A DNA stretch of 64,000 bases from Radicibacter daui (lineage in GTDB: Bacteria > Pseudomonadota > Alphaproteobacteria > Radicibacterales > Radicibacteraceae): the NCBI GenBank assembly GCA_030657355.1, contig CP131056.1, forward strand, positions 1,756,501 through 1,820,500. The letters are read 5' to 3'. The notes under the pieces are model-generated. The model saw nothing but the letters and a program-made list of their open reading frames with translations. It searched no databases and was not told the DNA's origin. The position numbers were made by a program, and so were the translations under genes. Positions 4,532-51,179 of the stretch are shown piece after piece; the first letter of the stretch is position 1, and each line of letters opens with the position of its first letter.

Positions 4532-4607
<76 letters not shown>

Positions 4608-4611
4608 TCTC

Positions 4612-4655
4612 AAAGCCCTGAAATCCTTCGTGGATTTCGGGGCTTTTGATTTTCT
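4612..4655 (+). terminator. Rho-independent terminator after tRNA-Lys
   Basis: Starting 5 bases after the tRNA, AAAGCCC-T-GAAATCC and GGATTTC-G-GGGCTTTT form a long hairpin with a TTCG-containing loop, followed by a T-rich tract (GATTTT). Confidence 0.85.
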
Positions 4656-4751: not shown

Positions 4752-5444
4752 ATGCGATTTGCGCTTTACGCCGCCCCACGCCCGGGAGAGGCCCTGCATG
4801 ATGCCGGCTCGCGCTGGCTCGGGCGCGATGCCGCCCTGGACACCCCGCTGGAGCAGCCACAGGTGCAGGGGATTGAGGCCGCGCAAATGGCGGTGATGAC
4901 CGCCGAGCCTCGGCGGTACGGTTTTCACGGCACACTGAAGCCCCCCTTTGCCTTGAAGGAGGCCGAGACGCAGGAGGCGCTGGAAGCTGCCGTGGCGTTG
5001 CTCGCGGCGCGCTTGACGCCGGTTGCGGTTCCCGACCTCAAGGTAGGGCGCATCGGGCATTTCCTGGCGCTGGTGCCGGGCATGCGGAATGAGGCGCTTG
5101 AGGCATTGGCAGCAGAGTGCGTTACCGCGCTCGATGGCTTCCGCGCCGAGATGCCGGTGGAAGAACTGGCGCGGCGTCGGGCCGCCTGCCTTTCCCCGCG
5201 GCAGGACGAGATGCTGCTGCGCTGGGGCTATCCTTATGTGATGGATCAGTCCCGCTATCACATGACGCTTTCCGGCCGTATTTTTCCGGCAGAGATGGAG
5301 CTGCTGCAACCTGTGGCCGAGTGCTGGTTTGCGCCATCCCTTTCCGGGGGCTTTACAGTCGACGCCCTGGCCCTTTTCATGGAGCCGGAGAAGGGGGCGC
5401 CGCTCGTGATGCTCAGGCATTTTGCGCTCGGCAAGGCCGGCTGA
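4752..5444 (+). CDS. DUF1045 family phosphonate-metabolism protein, 2H-phosphoesterase-like
   Basis: This 230-residue cytosolic protein belongs to the DUF1045 family, usually encoded inside C-P lyase clusters. Two H-x-T motifs are visible: FHGTLKPPF near residue 58 and YHMTLSG near 172. They are the catalytic signature of 2H phosphoesterases, so it plausibly opens a cyclic ribose phosphate from phosphonate breakdown; that substrate is inferred. The start ATG 4752 (MRFALYAAPRPGE) matches the family N-terminus. The next gene, phnM, starts 61 bases later on the same strand. None of phnGHIJKL is in the window, which is unusual for this pair. Confidence 0.85.
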   Translation: MRFALYAAPRPGEALHDAGSRWLGRDAALDTPLEQPQVQGIEAAQMAVMTAEPRRYGFHGTLKPPFALKEAETQEALEAAVALLAARLTPVAVPDLKVGRIGHFLALVPGMRNEALEALAAECVTALDGFRAEMPVEELARRRAACLSPRQDEMLLRWGYPYVMDQSRYHMTLSGRIFPAEMELLQPVAECWFAPSLSGGFTVDALALFMEPEKGAPLVMLRHFALGKAG

Positions 5445-5505
5445 CGGCTCGGGCGATTGCCGCCACTTTCTTTCGTTGCTTCCGACCCGCCTTTACGAGC
5501 CTTCA

Positions 5506-6666
5506 ATGACCGCCGAAATCATCTTTACCAACGCCCGTATCGTGCTTGCCGACAGCATTGTGGATGGCAGCGTCGTGGTGAAGGACGGCCTGATAACCGG
5601 CATTGACGCAGGCAGCACCGTCCGTGCGGCCGGGGTGATCGATCTGGCGGGCGACTATCTGATGCCGGGCCTCGTCGAGCTGCATACCGACCATCTGGAA
5701 TCGCATTTCCATCCGCGTCCCAAGGTGCGCTGGCCGGCGATTGCCGCAGTGCAGGCGCATGATGCGCAGGTGGCGGCATCCGGCATCACCACGGTGCTGG
5801 ATGCGCTGCGGGTGGGCACCCTGCGCACGGACAGCGCCGGCCTTGCGGAGAATGTCGCCACGCTGGCAGCAGCCATCCGCGCCGCGCGGGAGGCCGGCTG
5901 GCTGAAAGCGGACCACAAGCTGCATATCCGCTGCGAGCTCTCCAGCCCGGACACTGTTGCCGGCCTTGAAGGATTGCTCGACGATCCGGCGCTGCAGCTC
6001 CTGTCGCTGATGGACCATACGCCGGGGCAGCGCCAGTTCGTCCATCTCGGCCATTTCCGCACCTACTACCAGGGCAAGACGGGGATGAGCGACAGCCAGA
6101 TGGATGAATTCATCGCCGAGCGGCAGGCCGACCATCATCGCCATTGTCCGGCCAACCGGGCACGGGTGGTGGAGATTGCGCGGGCGCGTGGCCTGCGCCT
6201 TGCCAGCCATGACGATGCGACGGCGGCGCACGTTGCCGAAGCGGTGGAGAATGGCGTGGCGATTGCCGAATTCCCCACCACGCTGGAGGCCGCACGCGCT
6301 GCCGAGGGCGAGGGGCTGGCTGTGCTGATGGGGGCCCCCAACATCGTGCGTGGCGGCTCGCACAGCGGCAATATTTCGGCTGCCGAGCTGGCACGCGAAG
6401 GGCTGCTCGACATTCTGTCGTCGGATTATGTGCCCTTCAGCCTGATGCAGGCGGTCTTCCGCCTGTCGGACGAAGGCATCGTAACGCTGCCGAGGGCGGT
6501 CGCGATGGTAACGTCTGCTCCCGCCCGGGCGGTGGGGCTGATTGATCGCGGCGAGATCGCGCCCGGCAAGCGCGCCGATCTGGTGCGGGTGGAAGCGGCT
6601 GGTGAAGATCAGGGACGCCTGCCGGTCGTGCGCTCCGTCTGGCGCGAGGGCCAGCGGGTCTGCTGA
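5506..6666 (+). CDS. phnM: Alpha-D-ribose 1-methylphosphonate 5-triphosphate diphosphatase
   Basis: PhnM removes pyrophosphate from the ribose triphosphate phosphonate made early in the C-P lyase pathway. The 386-residue amidohydrolase-fold protein has the metal-binding HTDH motif (His60, His63) in GLVELHTDHLESHFHPRP, SHDDAT near 235, GAPNIVRGGSHSGN near 280 and the late SSDYVPFSL segment. I chose ATG 5506 (MTAEIIFTNARIVL), because the frame upstream is not family-like. It forms a likely operon with the DUF1045 gene. A role outside C-P lyase cannot be excluded, since the core lyase genes are not seen here. Confidence 0.93.
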   Translation: MTAEIIFTNARIVLADSIVDGSVVVKDGLITGIDAGSTVRAAGVIDLAGDYLMPGLVELHTDHLESHFHPRPKVRWPAIAAVQAHDAQVAASGITTVLDALRVGTLRTDSAGLAENVATLAAAIRAAREAGWLKADHKLHIRCELSSPDTVAGLEGLLDDPALQLLSLMDHTPGQRQFVHLGHFRTYYQGKTGMSDSQMDEFIAERQADHHRHCPANRARVVEIARARGLRLASHDDATAAHVAEAVENGVAIAEFPTTLEAARAAEGEGLAVLMGAPNIVRGGSHSGNISAAELAREGLLDILSSDYVPFSLMQAVFRLSDEGIVTLPRAVAMVTSAPARAVGLIDRGEIAPGKRADLVRVEAAGEDQGRLPVVRSVWREGQRVC

Positions 6667-6737: not shown

Positions 6738-6935
6738 TTAGTGCTTGCCGAGCCAGAGGTCGACCTGGCGATCCGCCTCTTCCCGGGCGATGCCATAACG
6801 CTTCTGGATGGTGCCGGCGAGTTCGGTGCGGCGGCCACGAATTACATCGAAATCGTCGTCGGTCAGTTTGCCCCACTGGGCCTGGATGCTGCCCTTGAAC
6901 TCTTTCCAGTTACCTTCGATCTGATCCCAATTCAT
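6738..6935 (-). CDS. CsbD family stress protein
   Basis: A small hydrophilic protein of 65 residues, MNWDQIEGNWKEFKGSIQAQ and on, with the CsbD pattern W-x-x-x-K-G and WGKLTDDD. Family members are often induced by general stress; the molecular role is unknown. The start at 6935 begins with the conserved MNWDQIEG and is preceded by GGGAGAACAAC on the coding strand. It is convergent with phnM and lies downstream of the ScfR-like regulator on the same strand. Confidence 0.92.
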   Translation of the reverse strand: MNWDQIEGNWKEFKGSIQAQWGKLTDDDFDVIRGRRTELAGTIQKRYGIAREEADRQVDLWLGKH

Positions 6936-7055: not shown

Positions 7056-8495
7056 TCAGCTTTCTTCTGCCACCGAATAGGGGATAAAGCGGCGCCGGTT
7101 ATCGTCCACGGACACGGCGCGCGTTGCTGGCGGAAAGGCACGTTGCGGGCACTGCACCCGCTCGCATACACGGCAGCCGGGGCCGATGGGCACGGCGGCA
7201 TTCTGCGCGCCGGAGAGGTCGATGCCCTGCGCGTAGACAAGCCGGTGCGCATAGGAGATCTCGCAGCCGATGCCGACGGCGAAATCCTGCTTGGGGGCGG
7301 TAAAGCCGCCGCCGCCTTTCTGCACCGTGCGGGCAAGGCACAAATAGGTCGTGCCGTCGGGCATGCTGGCAAGCTGGATGAGGATGCGCCGGGGCGAGGC
7401 AAAAGCCTCATGCACGTTCCATAGCGGGCAGGCACCGCCGAAGCGGGCGAAATGGAAGCGCGGGGCGCTCTGGCGTTTGGAGATGTTGCCGGCCTTGTCC
7501 ACGCGCACGAAATAAAACGGCACGCCCTGGGCGCCAGGCCGGCGCAGGGTGGAGAGCCGGTGCGTTACCTGCTCGAAACTGGCGCCGAAGCGACGCTGCA
7601 ACTGCTCGATATCGTACCAGCAGGCCTCCGCACTGTTGAGGAACTCGCGGTACGGCATGATGAGTGCGCCGGCAAAGTGGTTCGCAAGCCCCACCCGGCA
7701 GATCGAGGGGGCGCCTTCAGCGCTGAAACCGGCCTCGCCGATCAGATGCTCGATGCTCTCGGCCTGGTCGAGCAGGGCGATCTGGTAGGCGGCCTGGAAG
7801 GTCTGGCTGGCGGGCGGTAGCGCCTCGGAGATGGTGAGGGTGCGGCTTTCCGGATCGTAGCGGCGCAGGGTGCTGGGGCCGCCGGGGCTTGAGGGGTCGA
7901 TGCGGGTGCGCACGCCGTGGGTGTGGGCGAGATAGTTGATGAGATCGTCCAGCATATTGCCGAGGCGGAAGTTCTCCCGTGCCTGCAGCGCTTCGGCGGC
8001 CCGCTCCAGCCCGTCGAAATAGTTGTTCATATGGTGAAAATAGTCGCGAACTTCTTCGTAGGGGCCCTGGCTGCGCACGCCGGGTTCGTCGGGAAAGCCG
8101 CCAAGATCCCGGGCGTCGCGCATCTCGCGAAAGCGCCGGTAGAGGGTCAGGAACTTGCCGCCCAGATCAGGGGAGGCGGCGATGGCATTGCGAAGCTCGG
8201 CATTGCCGACCGCTTGCGGATCGGCTGCAAAGACCGGATCGGCCAGTGCCTCGCGCAATTCTACCAGCAGCTGGGCTTCATCATCCGTTGCCAGATCTTC
8301 CAGCGCCACATCGAGCACGCGGCTGACGCGCAGCAGGACGCTGGCCGTCAGCGGGCGCTGGTTGCGCTCTATCTGGTTGAGATAGCTGGGAGAAACGTCA
8401 GAGAGACGGGCAAGGTCAGCCTGGCTCAGGCTTTTGCGTTCACGCAGGCGCTTGAGTTTGGGGCCGATAAAAAGCTTCTCGTCCATGGCGGCCAT
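7056..8495 (-). CDS. ScfR-type (short-chain fatty acyl-CoA) XRE regulator of the prp genes
   Basis: A 479-residue regulator with an N-terminal XRE helix-turn-helix (KLKRLRERKSLSQADLARLS, then SPSYLNQIERNQRPL), a central ImmA/IrrE-like region and the C-terminal DUF2083 domain of ScfR/PccR/RamB-type proteins. A cysteine cluster C-x2-C-x4-C (GCRVCERVQCPQ) lies near the end. The central region has no HExxH, so it is not an active peptidase. Family members sense short-chain acyl-CoA. It is divergent from prpDBC, with operator-like repeats between, so it probably controls propionyl-CoA use. ATG 8495 and ATG 8486 are both possible starts. Confidence 0.88.
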   Translation of the reverse strand: MAAMDEKLFIGPKLKRLRERKSLSQADLARLSDVSPSYLNQIERNQRPLTASVLLRVSRVLDVALEDLATDDEAQLLVELREALADPVFAADPQAVGNAELRNAIAASPDLGGKFLTLYRRFREMRDARDLGGFPDEPGVRSQGPYEEVRDYFHHMNNYFDGLERAAEALQARENFRLGNMLDDLINYLAHTHGVRTRIDPSSPGGPSTLRRYDPESRTLTISEALPPASQTFQAAYQIALLDQAESIEHLIGEAGFSAEGAPSICRVGLANHFAGALIMPYREFLNSAEACWYDIEQLQRRFGASFEQVTHRLSTLRRPGAQGVPFYFVRVDKAGNISKRQSAPRFHFARFGGACPLWNVHEAFASPRRILIQLASMPDGTTYLCLARTVQKGGGGFTAPKQDFAVGIGCEISYAHRLVYAQGIDLSGAQNAAVPIGPGCRVCERVQCPQRAFPPATRAVSVDDNRRRFIPYSVAEES

Positions 8496-8520
8496 CAAAA
8501 GTGAGCAGTTGTTGCGGCAG

Positions 8521-8558
8521 TTTGCAAAATGCTCATTCGCAAAATTTGCATTTGCGAA
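8521..8558. promoter_or_regulatory. Phased ScfR-like half-sites between the regulator gene and prpD
   Basis: Three related octamers begin exactly 15 bases apart: TTTGCAAA (8521), TTCGCAAA (8536) and TTTGCGAA (8551). A further TTTGCATT lies at 8545, and another pair (TGCAAA 8619, TTGCGAA 8627) lies nearer prpD. TTTGCAAA repeats are the known target type of PccR/RamB regulators. The block lies just upstream of the regulator start, so it may also carry autoregulation. Confidence 0.65.
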
Positions 8559-8874
8559 TTTTATACAAGCAAATCCTTTCCTTCTAGGCACTTTTGTGAC
8601 GATACAGACTTGCTAGGCTGCAAATCTTGCGAATAGATAGGCGCATCACCTGCGCCACAGGGTTTCCCGTCGCCCGCGCAGGATCGGTCAAGGCAGCACT
8701 CTCCCCATCTCGCTGCCTTTTCTACCGACGGTCCAAGTCTGGGGTTCGGAAACGCTAAGATCGGCGCGGACGGTGGCACATCAAACGATGCCACCGCCGC
8801 GCCTCCTTGCCCGGCTCGCCTGCTATCGGCAGGCGAGGAGGTATCTCATCGCCCGATTGTCCTCCCGTTAAAAA

Positions 8875-10398
8875 ATGAGCGTGATCGACATGAAGCTGCA
8901 CAAGGTCCGCGTCTATAAATCCTCCGAAAAGCTGCCGCGCGAAGAGCAGCTGGCCTGGAAGCTGGCCGCGCTTGCCACCGACCCGGTGCCGGTCGAGGCG
9001 GCGGTGGAGGAGATGATCGTCAACCGCCTCATCGACAACGCGGCAGTGGCGATTGCCGCCATCAACCGCAGCCCGGCGGTGACGGCACGCTCGCAGGCGC
9101 TGGCGCATCCGCGTGATGGGGGAGCCACTCTCTTCGGCCTGCCGGAAGGCGTTCGGGTGTGCGCCGAATGGGCGGCCTGGGCCAATGGCACCGCCGTGCG
9201 GGAGCTTGATTTCCACGACACCTTCCTGGCTGCCGATTACAGCCATCCCGGCGATAACCTGCCCGCCCTGCTGGCGGTGGCGCAGCAAAAGGGCTGCTCG
9301 GGCGCCGACCTGATCCGCGCCGCCGCTACGGCCTATGAGGTGCAGGTCGACCTCGTCAAATCCATCTGCCTGCATGAGCACAAGATCGACCATGTGGCCC
9401 ATCTCGGCCCCTCCGCTGCCGCCGGCATCGGCACGCTGCTGGGACTATCGACCGAAGCGGTCTATCAGGCCGTCCAGCAGGCGCTGCATGTGACGACCGC
9501 CACGCGCCAGAGCCGCAAGGGCGAGATCAGCTCGTGGAAGGCCTTTGCCCCCGCCCACGCCACCAAGCTTGCCATTGAAGCGGTGGACCGGGCGATGCGC
9601 GGCGAGGGCGCGCCGTCCCCGATCTATGAGGGCGAGGATGCGGTGATTGCCTGGATGCTCTCTGGCCCGAAGGCGGAATACCAGGTGCCGCTGCCGGAAG
9701 CGGGGGAGCCCAAGCGCGCCATCCTCGACACCTACACCAAGGAACACAGTGCCGAATATCAGGCGCAGGCGATCATCGATCTGGCGGCCCGGCTCGGCGC
9801 GCGTGTCCCCGACCTTGCCAAGGTCAAATCCATCGTGCTGCACACCAGCCATCACACCCATTATGTGATCGGCACCGGCGCCGGTGATCCGCAGAAGATG
9901 GATCCGGATGCCAGCCGCGAAACGCTGGACCATTCCATCATGTATATCTTCGCCGTGGCGCTGGAAGATCGCAGCTGGCACCACGTGCGCTCCTATGCGC
10001 CCGAGCGGGCCCGCCGGCCGGAAACGGTGGCGCTGTGGCACAAGATCTCCACGCTTGAGGATCCGGTCTGGACCGAGCGCTATCACACCGCCGATCCGGC
10101 CCGTAAGGCCTTCGGCGGCAAGGCGGTTGTCACCATGGCCGATGGCAGCGTGATCGAGGATGAACTGGCGGTGGCCAATGCCCATCCGCTGGGTGCCCGT
10201 CCCTTTGCCCGTCCGGACTATATCCGCAAGTTCCGCACCCTGACGGAAGGGGTTCTGGCACCTGCCGAGGCCGAACGCTTCCTCGATCTGGTGCAGCAAT
10301 TGCCCCGGCTTGATGCCGCCGGCCTCTGCGGGCTCAACCCGGCGCTGCCGGAAGGGGCCTTGCTGGGCGCCGCGCGCGATCGTGCCGGGATTTTCTGA
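8875..10398 (+). CDS. prpD: 2-Methylcitrate dehydratase (MmgE/PrpD family)
   Basis: Dehydrates 2-methylcitrate to 2-methyl-cis-aconitate in the methylcitrate cycle. The 507 residues carry the family features [37 protein letters not shown] (conserved Asp and His region) and [17 protein letters not shown]. Length is typical. I chose ATG 8875; ATG 8890 ([16 protein letters not shown]) is a possible internal start. It leads the prpD-prpB-prpC operon, divergent from its likely regulator. Confidence 0.95.
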
Positions 10399-10437
10399 TC
10401 TCTCCCGGACGGGTCTTTTGAAGAAGGACGGCAACGG

Positions 10438-11349
10438 ATGTTGTTTGCCAAGAAGAACGGCGCTGAAAAGCGCGCCGATTTCCGCAAGGCGCTCGCCTCC
10501 GGCAAGCTTTTGCGTTTCCCCGGTGCCTTTTCGCCGCTGGTGGCGATGCTGATCGAGCAGCAGGGCTGGAACGGCGTCTATATCTCCGGCGCGGTGCTGG
10601 CCAATGATCTGGGCCTGCCGGATATTGGCCTCACCACCATGAGCGAGGTAACCCAGCGCGGCCGGCAAATCGCGCGGGTAACCGACCTGCCGTCGATTAT
10701 CGATATCGATACCGGCTTTGGCGAGCCGATGTCGGCAGCGCGCACCATCATGGAGCTGGAGGATCTGGGGCTCGCCGGCTGCCATATGGAAGACCAGATC
10801 AACCCCAAGCGCTGCGGCCATCTGGACGGCAAGGAGGTGGTGAGCGCCACCGACATGGTGCGGAAGATCCGCGCCGCGTCCGACGCCAAGCGCGATCCCA
10901 ACTTCGTGCTCATTGCCCGCACCGACAGCCGCGCCATCGAAGGGCTGGACAAGGCGATTGACCGCGCCAAGGCCTATGTCGATGCCGGGGCGGATGCGAT
11001 CTTTCCGGAAGCGATGAAGGACGAGCGCGAGTTCGAGGCGATGCGCAAGGCGGTTTCTGTGCCGCTGCTGGCCAACATGACCGAGTTCGGCAAATCGCGC
11101 CTGCTCAATGCCAGCGAGCTGGAAGCGCTTGGCTACAACATCGTCATCTATCCCGTCACCACGCTGCGTCTTGCCATGGGCGCGGTGGAAAGTGCGCTGG
11201 AGCAGATCAAGCGCGAGGGTGACCAGAACAGCGTTCTGGACCAGATGCAGACCCGCAAGCGGCTCTACGAGGTCGTGCGTTACGAGGATTACAACGACTT
11301 CGACCAGAGCCTTTTCAACTTCACCGTCGCGGAGACGACGCCGCAATAA
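10438..11349 (+). CDS. prpB: 2-Methylisocitrate lyase
   Basis: Cleaves 2-methylisocitrate to pyruvate and succinate. The 303-residue protein of the ICL/PEP-mutase superfamily has IDIDTGFGEP for metal binding, MEDQINPKRCGHLDGKEVV with the catalytic KRCGH, and a conserved RTDSRA segment. The start ATG 10438 follows AAGGA at 10424-10428. It lies 39 bases after prpD and 74 bases before prpC. Confidence 0.96.
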   Translation: MLFAKKNGAEKRADFRKALASGKLLRFPGAFSPLVAMLIEQQGWNGVYISGAVLANDLGLPDIGLTTMSEVTQRGRQIARVTDLPSIIDIDTGFGEPMSAARTIMELEDLGLAGCHMEDQINPKRCGHLDGKEVVSATDMVRKIRAASDAKRDPNFVLIARTDSRAIEGLDKAIDRAKAYVDAGADAIFPEAMKDEREFEAMRKAVSVPLLANMTEFGKSRLLNASELEALGYNIVIYPVTTLRLAMGAVESALEQIKREGDQNSVLDQMQTRKRLYEVVRYEDYNDFDQSLFNFTVAETTPQ

Positions 11350-11372
11350 CGCCGGACGAAGCCCTTTGGCAT

Positions 11373-11393
11373 GCCGGCTCTTTTGAAGCCGGC
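11373..11393 (+). other. Intercistronic hairpin between prpB and prpC
   Basis: GCCGGCT (11373-11379) and AGCCGGC (11387-11393) form a 7-bp stem with loop CTTTTGA. There is no T tract, so it is more likely an mRNA processing or stability element than a terminator. Function is inferred only. Confidence 0.4.
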
Positions 11394-11423
11394 CATTCCG
11401 GCAAAAAGGGAGGTCGCTGCCAG

Positions 11424-12542
11424 ATGAGCGAGAACCAGAGCGAGGTCAAAAAAGGGCTGGTGGGCGTGGTGGTCGATACCACCGCCGTCTCCAAGGTGAT
11501 GCAGGAGATAAACGCGCTTACCTATCGGGGTTATGCGGTGCAGGATCTGGCCGCCAGATGCCGGTTCGAGCAGGTGGCCCACCTGCTGCTGAAGGGCGCC
11601 TTGCCGACACCGGCCGAGTTGAGCGCCTTTACCGCGGAAGAACGCGGTCAACGCGCCCTCAGCCCGTCGCTTGCCCGTATGCTGGATGCCATCCCCACCC
11701 AGGCGCATCCGATGGACATGGTGCGCTCGGCCGTCAGCCATATGGGCATGGAGGATGAGGAAACTGCCGATCCGTCCCCGGAGGCCAATCTGCGCAAGGC
11801 GATGCGCCTTTATGCCCGCATGCCGGCGGTGATTGCGCGGCTGATGCGCAATCGCCGCGGTCAGGCCGCCGTGGCGCCGCGGGATGATCTTGGATATGCG
11901 GAAAACTTCTTCCACATGGTGTTCGAGGCGGTGCCCGAGCCTGAAGTGGTCAAGGCCTTTGATGCGTCCATGACGCTCTATGCCGAGCACAGCTTCAACG
12001 CGTCCACCTTCACGGCTCGCGTTATCACCTCCACCAATTCAGATATCTATTCGGCGCTGACAGGGGCTGTCGGCGCGCTGAAGGGCAATCTGCATGGCGG
12101 TGCCAACGAGGCGGTGATGCATCTCCTGCAGGAGATCGGACATGCCGACCGGGCCGAGGCCTGGATGGAACGCGCTCTGGTGGAAGGGCGCAAGATCATG
12201 GGCTTCGGGCACCGGGTCTATAAAAACGGCGACAGCCGGGTGCCGACGATGCGCGAGCATTTCGAGGCGGTGGCGCTGCTCAAGGGCCGCGCCGATCTGG
12301 TGGAGATGGAAAACATCCTCGCCGGCGTCATGCTGCGGGAAAAGAACATCCACCCCAACCTCGATTTCCCTGCCGGGCCCGCCTATTACCTCATGGGCTT
12401 CGACATTGATTTCTTTACCCCGCTGTTCGTCATGGCGCGGGTGACGGGCTGGTCGGCCCATGTGTTCGAGCAGGTGGCTGACAACCGGCTTATCCGTCCG
12501 CTTTCGGCCTATACCGGGCCCGACAGCCGGCCGGTGCCGTAA
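11424..12542 (+). CDS. prpC: 2-Methylcitrate synthase
   Basis: Condenses propionyl-CoA with oxaloacetate, the entry step of the methylcitrate cycle. The 372-residue protein is of short citrate-synthase type with LHGGANEAVM (catalytic His region), the signature MGFGHRVYKNGDSRVP and NLDFPAGPAYYLMGF. Its position after prpD and prpB distinguishes it from citrate synthase GltA, which is usually longer. ATG 11424 is preceded by AGGGAGG at 11407-11413. Confidence 0.95.
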   Translation: MSENQSEVKKGLVGVVVDTTAVSKVMQEINALTYRGYAVQDLAARCRFEQVAHLLLKGALPTPAELSAFTAEERGQRALSPSLARMLDAIPTQAHPMDMVRSAVSHMGMEDEETADPSPEANLRKAMRLYARMPAVIARLMRNRRGQAAVAPRDDLGYAENFFHMVFEAVPEPEVVKAFDASMTLYAEHSFNASTFTARVITSTNSDIYSALTGAVGALKGNLHGGANEAVMHLLQEIGHADRAEAWMERALVEGRKIMGFGHRVYKNGDSRVPTMREHFEAVALLKGRADLVEMENILAGVMLREKNIHPNLDFPAGPAYYLMGFDIDFFTPLFVMARVTGWSAHVFEQVADNRLIRPLSAYTGPDSRPVP

Positions 12543-49233: not shown

Positions 49234-51179
49234 TCGCGCGCCAGCGCCTCCACAGGGTCCAGCCGCGCCGCGCTGCGGGCAGGCAGGAAACCGAAAATCA
49301 CGCCGATCAGGGTCGAGCAGGCAAAGGCCGCGACGATCGAAGTGGTCGAATAGGTAAGATTCACGTCGGTGCTGAAATGGGTGAGAATGAAACCGAGCCC
49401 GAAGGCGGCCATCACTCCCAGAAACCCGCCGATGAAACACACCAGCACCGCCTCGATGAGGAACTGGCGCAGGATGTCGTTCTGCCGGGCACCCACGGCC
49501 ATGCGCACGCCGATCTCGCGGGTACGCTCCGTCACCGAGACGAGCATGATGTTCATGACGCCGATACCGCCGACGACCAGCGAGATGAGCGCGATTGCCG
49601 AAATGAGCAGGGTCAGGGTTTCGGTCGTCTTCTGGATGGTCTGACGGATGGTGTCCGTGTTCATCGTGAAGAAGTCCTTGGTGCCGTGCTGGCGCTCCAG
49701 CGCGGCGATGATCTGCTGCTCGGCAACGGCGGTATCGTAATTGTCCGCCACGCGCACGGTGATGCTCTGCAAGTTGGTCTGCCCGAGGATGCGGCTCATC
49801 GCCGTGGTGTAGGGCAGCCAGACATTCAACTCGTCGCTGTTGCCGAAGGGGGAGGCCTTGGGGGCCGTCACGCCGATGATGCGCACCGGCACATCGCCGA
49901 CAAAGAACACCTGCCCCAGCGGATCATCCCCGTTGGGGAACATTTTCTGGCGGGTGTTGTCGTCGATGACGGCGACCTGCGCCCGGCGGCTGATGCTGCC
50001 GGCGTCGAAAGAAACACCGTTCGCCATCTCATAGCCGCGCACGCGGAAGAACTGGTCCCCCACGCCGCGTACCGTGGCGGAGAGCTCAAGGTTGCGGTAG
50101 CGCAGGATCTTGCCGGAGGCGGAAACGCCGGGCGTCACACTGTCGGCATAGGTTTCCCTGGCCAGCAGGTCGGCATCGCGGGGCACCAGCGTGAGGATGC
50201 TGGAGGATTTGCGGTCACCGAAATCCTTGCCGGGATAGATGTCGATCGTATTGGTGCCGATGGAGTTGATGTTCTCCAGGATCTGCGCGCTCGATCCCTG
50301 GCCGAGCGCCACTACCGAGACCACCGAGGCGATGCCGATGATGATGCCGAGCATGGTAAGGAAGGTGCGCAGGCGATGGGCCGCCATGGCGACGAGCGCC
50401 ATGCTGAAGGCCTCGCCAAAACGGCCGAGCGCGGCGCGCCAGCTGGAGCGGGCGTGATCGGCCAGCGGCGGGGCAATGCTTTCTTCCTGCGGCTTGCGCC
50501 GTGTGTCGGCAATGATGCGGCCGTCGCTGATCTCGATGATGCGCTCGGCATGGTCGGCCACCTTGGCATCGTGGGTCACGATGATGATGGTGTGGCCGGC
50601 CTGATGCAGCTCGGAGAGCAGCTTCAGCATCTCCTCGCCGCTGGTGCTGTCGAGCGCACCGGTCGGCTCGTCGGCCAGGATGATCTGGCCGCCATTCATC
50701 AGCGCACGCGCCACGCTGACGCGTTGCTGCTGGCCGCCGGAAAGCTGCGAGGGTTTGTGATCCAGCCGGTTGCCGAGGCCGAGCCGCTCGAGCAGTGAGG
50801 CGGCGCGGTCCTGCCGGGCGCCCCGGGGGGCGCCGGCATAGATGGCCGGCACTTCCACATTGCCGAGCGCGGTCAGCGTGGAGAGCAGGTGATAACGCTG
50901 GAAGATGAAGCCGAAATATTCGCGCCGGAGGGCGGCGAGTTCATCGGGCTCCAGCCCGTTCGTATCCTGCCCGTTGATGCGATAGGCACCGCTGGTCGGC
51001 CGGTCGAGGCAGCCGAGGATGTTCATCAGCGTCGACTTGCCGGAGCCGGAAGCGCCGATGATGGCGACCATCTCGCCGGAATTGATGGTGAGGTTTACAT
51101 CCTGCAGCACCGCGATGGTGCCTTCGCCGGCGGGGAATTCCCGGCGCAGGTCCTCAAGTTCGATAAGGGGTGTGCTCAT
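49230..51179 (-). CDS. macB: MacB-type ABC transporter, fused ATPase and permease
   Basis: A 649-residue inner-membrane mechanotransmission ABC protein that drives tripartite export. The ATPase half has Walker [10 protein letters not shown] (42-50), signature [15 protein letters not shown] and Walker [14 protein letters not shown]. The permease half has one helix near 275, a large periplasmic domain and three C-terminal helices ([20 protein letters not shown] is the conserved FtsX region). Three bases separate it from macA, and it overlaps the OMF gene. The substrate (macrolide, lipid or peptide) cannot be told. Confidence 0.95.

Follow-up and report, generated by a model that had tools for sequence, protein, structure and literature searches.

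The window analysed here, a 64-kb stretch of the Radicibacter daui genome (1,756,501-1,820,500 of contig 1), carries an intact pair of genes, a DUF1045 gene followed by phnM, in a genome in which neither PhnJ nor PhnI could be matched. The explanation that we favour, to which we give a probability of about one half, is that these two genes are a remnant of the C-P lyase pathway without its core, retained for a chemistry of their own on ribosyl phosphates of other origin. Since the genome lacks both PhnI and PhnJ, neither enzyme of the pair has the usual source of its substrate, and ribosyl phosphates of a different kind are thus favoured. The preliminary description of this DNA had already suggested that the pair might act on other nucleotide-ribose phosphates; its recurrence in PhnJ-less genomes and the purifying selection seen in one genus support that suggestion, although for the substrate itself there are only candidates.

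The DUF1045 gene (4752-5444, + strand, with its ATG at 4752 and its stop codon ending at 5444) encodes an RcsF-type 2H phosphoesterase of 230 amino acids, and phnM (5506-6666, + strand, ATG at 5506, stop codon ending at 6666) encodes a protein of 386 residues. Both reading frames are intact, and the spacing of 61 nt on the same strand makes a single transcript likely. The pair stands between a tRNA gene and csbD, as described earlier: tRNA-Lys (CTT), located with ARAGORN at 4532-4607 on the + strand, is the upstream neighbour, and csbD (6741-6935, - strand; PF05532, E 3.1e-18) is convergent with the pair on its downstream side, both lying outside it. Since a terminator-like hairpin of 15 pairs follows the 3′ end of the tRNA gene (4612-4646, + strand), the pair probably has a promoter of its own; in the region as a whole two terminator-like sites were found, with 2.6 expected from shuffled sequences. 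No sigma-70 promoter was found for the pair (0.4 expected), and the best upstream match to a Pho box consensus, 9 of 14 positions, gives no support for such a box. Upstream of tRNA-Lys are mreC and the gene for a penicillin-binding protein, and beyond csbD a short-chain acyl-CoA-type regulator is followed by PrpD, PEP mutase/isocitrate lyase and citrate-synthase family genes. The stretch at 7056-12542, where an ScfR-type short-chain acyl-CoA regulator (- strand) adjoins PrpD, PrpB-like and PrpC-like genes (+ strand), is a probable methylcitrate cycle cluster. None of the near neighbours points to phosphonate catabolism, no phnN or transporter gene is found beside the pair, and a scan of the 64-kb window with E. 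coli proteins gave one PhnC-like ABC match (50505-51167). The GC and GC3 of both genes are like those of the flanking genes. Their codon-usage distances are 0.137 for phnM and 0.199 for the DUF1045 gene, as compared with 0.089-0.156 for the other genes. Recent foreign import, which we considered, is unsupported given the match in GC and GC3, though the DUF1045 gene has the largest codon-usage distance of the ten genes compared.

The absence of a C-P lyase core, as claimed in the preliminary description, holds for the key parts that were searched for in the whole genome, which is 5.06 Mb long, in 2 contigs and rated 100% complete. A PhnJ profile gave no match, with the E. coli control positive, and a PhnI profile gave none either, with G360, G202 and E. 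coli positive. The best PhnN match reached 44 bits, far under the cut-off of 156, and is probably a guanylate kinase; in this search G360 and G202 scored 235 and 218 bits, and 1 of 14 controls was above the cut-off. The family search found one DUF1045 protein, with 0 of 14 controls matched and no control genome of known content, and the protein search found one PhnM. Three weak matches to the PhnM profile, outside its strong matches listed, are taken as other amidohydrolases. No complete phn cluster with a phnM and a DUF1045 gene of its own was found elsewhere, both genes being single-copy. These genome-wide searches covered PhnJ, PhnI, PhnN, PhnM, DUF1045 and CitG. PhnN is dispensable in some known C-P lyase sets, according to passages of one paper (PMC10574752).

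The DUF1045 protein matches PF06299 (E 1.4e-53, 181.6 bits, cut-off 24.3) and also TIGR03223, where its 251.2 bits are just above the cut-off of 248.95. The two H-x-T motifs that had been noticed in it are H59-G60-T61 (4926-4934, + strand) and H170-M171-T172 (5259-5267, + strand), and they are conserved among 38 aligned proteins, with H59, T61 and H170 invariant and T172 present in at least 90%. A 2H phosphoesterase fold is predicted for the protein. Its AF2 model (mean pLDDT 93.4) resembles YjcG (2d4g_A; Z 15.8, rmsd 3.1, 165 residues aligned), the Arabidopsis ADP-ribose 1'',2''-cyclic phosphate (Appr>p) phosphodiesterase (1jh6_A; Z 14.0, rmsd 3.6, 166 aligned) and the E. coli LigT chains (Z 13.5-13.7). 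Foldseek matched the model to 2H enzymes with E values of 4e-6 to 1e-3, the query-normalised TM scores of the top matches being middling (0.38-0.52), and a PDB search with the sequence gave two matches (best E 0.27), neither of them a relative. The substrate of the Arabidopsis enzyme contains ribose 1,2-cyclic phosphate. From the predicted fold together with the conserved motifs, the natural guess is that the DUF1045 protein would open ribose 1,2-cyclic phosphate, an activity not common to all 2H enzymes.

The PhnM of the window is a full-length family member (494.8 bits against TIGR02318, cut-off 390.55; 541.1 bits against NF011983, cut-off 486). It keeps all 43 columns that are invariant, and 84 of the 89 conserved at the 95% level, in a reference set of 52 PhnMs made up of 51 lyase-linked sequences and the E. 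coli protein, with L041_M2, L059_M2 and L071 left out. The invariant columns are likewise complete in five of six further PhnMs from PhnJ-less genomes, and 42 are kept in the sixth (G309). Other amidohydrolases were the only matches of a PDB sequence search with PhnM. The reaction described for PhnM is the removal of pyrophosphate from ribosyl phosphonate triphosphate (PMC10574752).

The distribution of the two genes was followed in 385 genomes of the class, in which the family and order of the window are represented by its own genome only. DUF1045 occurs in 80 of these, PhnJ in 64 and PhnM in 75, PhnM being counted from listed profile matches of at least 100 bits with at most 4 candidates scored per genome. 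Every one of the 64 PhnJ-positive genomes has PhnM and 63 have DUF1045. The 321 PhnJ-less genomes include 17 with DUF1045, 11 with PhnM and 10 with both, a co-occurrence with a hypergeometric p of 7.5e-14 if shared ancestry is ignored, and a search for PhnI came up empty in each of the 18 PhnJ-negative genomes with DUF1045, PhnM or both. The two genes are adjacent in four of the ten, namely in R. daui itself (G000), in G163 and G261, and in G246, where the phnM beside DUF1045 is truncated by a contig end; they lie apart in the other six (G015, G124, G153, G309, G116 and G347). Among the nine PhnJ-less genomes other than our own that hold both, two are single-contig, G347 and G153, the latter with a weaker PhnM match. 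PhnM is absent from 7 of the 17 PhnJ-less DUF1045 genomes, and three of those seven have weak or distant DUF1045 matches; the matches under 55 bits are those of G030, G114 and G336, that of G114 being below the cut-off. In G280 a PhnN piece lies beside DUF1045 on a short contig, and a core may therefore be hidden by the assembly.

The statement that both genes normally lie in phn clusters is true as a tendency. In the best 80 of 314 related loci, PhnG/H/I/J lie within about 8 kb at 55, PhnM only at 9 and neither at 16; the label of a core rests on this flank, a number of loci are cut off by the edge of a contig, and L022, L031 and L064 are lone in the sense of the flank only. A tight rhizobial DUF1045 group of ten loci (L010, L015, L016, L037, L042, L044, L046, L050, L055 and L081) has no phn gene within about 8 kb. 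Four other loci (L041, L047, L059 and L069) hold two PhnM genes each together with C-P lyase genes, and L041_M2, L059_M2, L047_M2 and L069_M2 form a deep separate group in the PhnM tree.

In G163 and G261, which belong to one genus and lack both PhnJ and PhnI, phnM comes before DUF1045 and a gene for a GntR/UTRA regulator adjoins them; on the other flank, in both genomes, are what we take, from reading the sequences, to be tadA-, SDR-, rluB- and rsmD-like genes. At one locus of this genus, L118, phnM and DUF1045 overlap by 4 nt. In G347 phnM also adjoins a GntR/UTRA regulator gene, with DUF1045 about 12 kb away. The regulator is common to these three genomes only, and none is found beside the window pair. 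No common third gene emerged from 10 neighbours of five lone PhnM loci, and no substrate is named by them. In G116 (L136:9298-10450) phnM is in fragments in different frames, which could be either decay or an assembly error, and the DUF1045 gene of this genome, at a locus of its own (L115), has an open frame. The phnM of PhnJ-less G309 (L133:9375-11445) adjoins a gene for a PhyH-family dioxygenase, a family that includes some phosphonate dioxygenases. In G124, also PhnJ-less (L132:7838-10664), phnM stands in a row with genes for a PhnD-like phosphonate-binding protein and a PhnC-like ATPase, suggesting that phosphonate uptake may persist there without the lyase.

Between G163 and G261 the NG86 dN/dS is 0.158 for phnM (bootstrap 0.108-0.205) and 0.152 for DUF1045 (0.079-0.230), as compared with 0.205 for the regulator in its stop-to-stop frame (0.184 in a trimmed frame) and 0.073, 0.078, 0.183 and 0.182 for four neighbour genes. 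Both genes are thus under purifying selection in this genus, like their neighbours. The two genomes lack PhnJ and PhnI and hold the pair at the same site, which is most simply explained by selection on the pair once the core had been lost; alternatively, there may have been independent late losses of a core located elsewhere. This measure of selection applies to the genus of G163 and G261, the family and order of the window being represented by a single genome.

In the PhnM tree, built from 60 of 74 rows after 14 had been removed (near-duplicates for the most part, plus a single short row), the PhnMs without a nearby core are scattered among the lyase-linked ones. The tree does not include G153, whose PhnM is a weaker match, or G246 and G116, in which the gene is split or broken. 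In a label shuffle on the first PhnM tree, 11 lone rows required 9 changes against a shuffled mean of 10.3, so they do not cluster. A dedicated subfamily of core-less PhnMs was considered and is rejected: the eight full-length PhnJ-less PhnMs as one clade give a p-AU of 0.0001, and seven of them, without G312, a p-AU of 0.0003. It follows that the PhnJ-less state arose more than once. A clade formed by the PhnMs of the window, G163 and G261 is not rejected (p-AU 0.054). The window PhnM groups with rhizobial DUF1045-phnM-phnN blocks with a support of 92, on a branch that is not starred. The DUF1045 tree, from which 14 of 94 rows were dropped, is mostly unresolved and does not group the window protein with those of rhizobia, so the two trees point to no common donor.

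An alternative explanation is that a full phn cluster was once present, that its core was lost recently, and that the pair is an undecayed leftover without a present role. We regard this as possible, with the odds against it. Its appeal is that the PhnM of the window is unremarkable within its family, its nearest relatives in the tree belonging to rhizobial modules of the same gene order, that partial sets are common, as the DUF1045 genomes without PhnM illustrate, and that decay of the kind expected may be visible in the phnM of G116. Against it are the open frames and the complete set of invariant PhnM columns, a GC and GC3 like those of the neighbours with an ordinary codon-usage distance for phnM (that of DUF1045 being higher), and the purifying selection acting on the same PhnJ-less state in G163 and G261. 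For the window pair itself a recent relic is possible. The preliminary description had also raised a split cluster, in which the pair serves a core elsewhere in the genome. In its favour, several kb separate the rhizobial DUF1045-phnM-phnN block from phnGHIJKL, and no core is found within 8 kb at L026, L030, L054, L078 and L082. However, the empty whole-genome searches exclude a split cluster as far as PhnJ and PhnI are concerned, unless a replicon is missing from the assembly, and we consider this explanation very improbable.

The substrate could instead be made by a core on a plasmid or other replicon that the assembly does not contain, or by a highly diverged lyase. DUF1045 relatives are present in 145 plasmid records, and a plasmid locus of Paracoccus kondratievae (L036) holds a core together with DUF1045 and phnM; against this stand the completeness of the genome and the nine other genomes in the same PhnJ-less state, the two single-contig ones among them, so that we judge such a source to be improbable. 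Triphosphoribosyl-dephospho-CoA, the product of a CitG/MdcB enzyme, chemically resembles the known PhnM substrate, and PhnM might trim its 5-triphosphate. Apart from this likeness nothing speaks for the idea, and CitG (PF01874), although positive in 23 of the 385 class genomes, was matched in 0 of the 11 PhnM-positive, PhnJ-negative genomes, R. daui included. This rules out the CitG/MdcB product as a general PhnM substrate and leaves next to no chance that it is the substrate here.

If the pair has been retained for chemistry of its own, both enzymes would use ribosyl phosphates that are not made by PhnI and PhnJ. The DUF1045 protein would open a 1,2-cyclic ribose phosphate by a two-histidine mechanism to give ribose 1,5-bisphosphate or a similar compound, and PhnM would take pyrophosphate off a ribosyl 5-triphosphate. 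PRPP breaks down spontaneously to phosphoribosyl cyclic phosphate, which makes this breakdown a candidate source of the DUF1045 substrate. A bolder version, which we put forward as speculative and rather unlikely, is that DUF1045 and PhnM constitute a lyase-independent module for the repair or salvage of ribosyl phosphates, in which DUF1045 would reopen the phosphoribosyl 1,2-cyclic phosphate formed from PRPP (or ADP-ribose cyclic phosphate) and PhnM would clear stray ribosyl 5-triphosphates. On this view, an older housekeeping function would either have been taken up by the C-P lyase pathway or be what the pathway was reduced to again. Several observations speak against the favoured reading of a pair retained for its own chemistry: there is no PhnN above the cut-off in the genome to use ribose 1,5-bisphosphate, 7 of the 17 PhnJ-less DUF1045 genomes are without PhnM, the genes are non-adjacent in 6 of 10, and the phnM of G116 is in pieces. 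The same holds for the neighbours, which name no substrate, for the regulator, which is missing beside the window pair, and for the middling Foldseek TM scores of the 2H match.

The closest known arrangement is the rhizobial DUF1045-phnM-phnN block (for example L004, L005 and L054), which has the same two genes in the same order and on the same strand, the highest identity being 57% (L054). In contrast to that block, the window has no phnN and no adjoining transporter genes, and its genome no PhnJ or PhnI. The PhnM of E. coli belongs to the same family as that of the window, but E. coli has the full operon. PhnP, the E. coli enzyme that DUF1045 is thought to replace, belongs to the metallo-beta-lactamase superfamily and thus to a different one from 2H. 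A role for the DUF1045 protein in place of PhnP, as proposed in the preliminary description, gains from the predicted 2H fold and both motifs; the idea is, however, already in print, and this genome has no PhnJ from which the cyclic ribose phosphate could come. Passages of three papers present RcsF/DUF1045 as a substitute for PhnP in C-P lyase operons (PMC3840354, PMC10574752, PMC8235418); that the rcsF of these papers is DUF1045 is our reading of passages of which no single one states both together. The protein of those operons is of the same 2H superfamily and has the same neighbourhood as in the window, but, as far as these passages go, it serves a complete pathway there, whereas the window genome lacks the enzyme making the cyclic product. 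Arthrobacter and Streptomyces have been described with incomplete phn gene sets (PMC7866108), and another paper reports phnM located outside the operon (PMC9381506). Both resemble the window in having PhnM without, or away from, some core genes; a partnership with DUF1045, recurrence and selection do not come up in the passages concerned. In the literature searched, consisting of listings, abstracts and passages, a DUF1045-phnM pair without the core does not appear. What is new is the recurrence of the PhnJ-less DUF1045 and PhnM combination in the class, its multiple origins and the purifying selection on it in one genus; these are known enzymes in an unusual, repeated and partly selected context.

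In surveys, phnM is used alongside phnJ or phnI as a marker of the capacity for C-P lyase, at least in the passages of two papers (PMC9381506, PMC11066067). Of the 75 genomes of the class with PhnM, 11 have no PhnJ, so that calls based on phnM by itself would overestimate the pathway. The intact state of the pair without a lyase, together with the same pattern in a few distant bacteria, suggests that it may serve outside phosphonate breakdown. If the pair does work without the lyase, it would be a sign that cyclic or triphosphorylated ribose is metabolised in a way not yet described.
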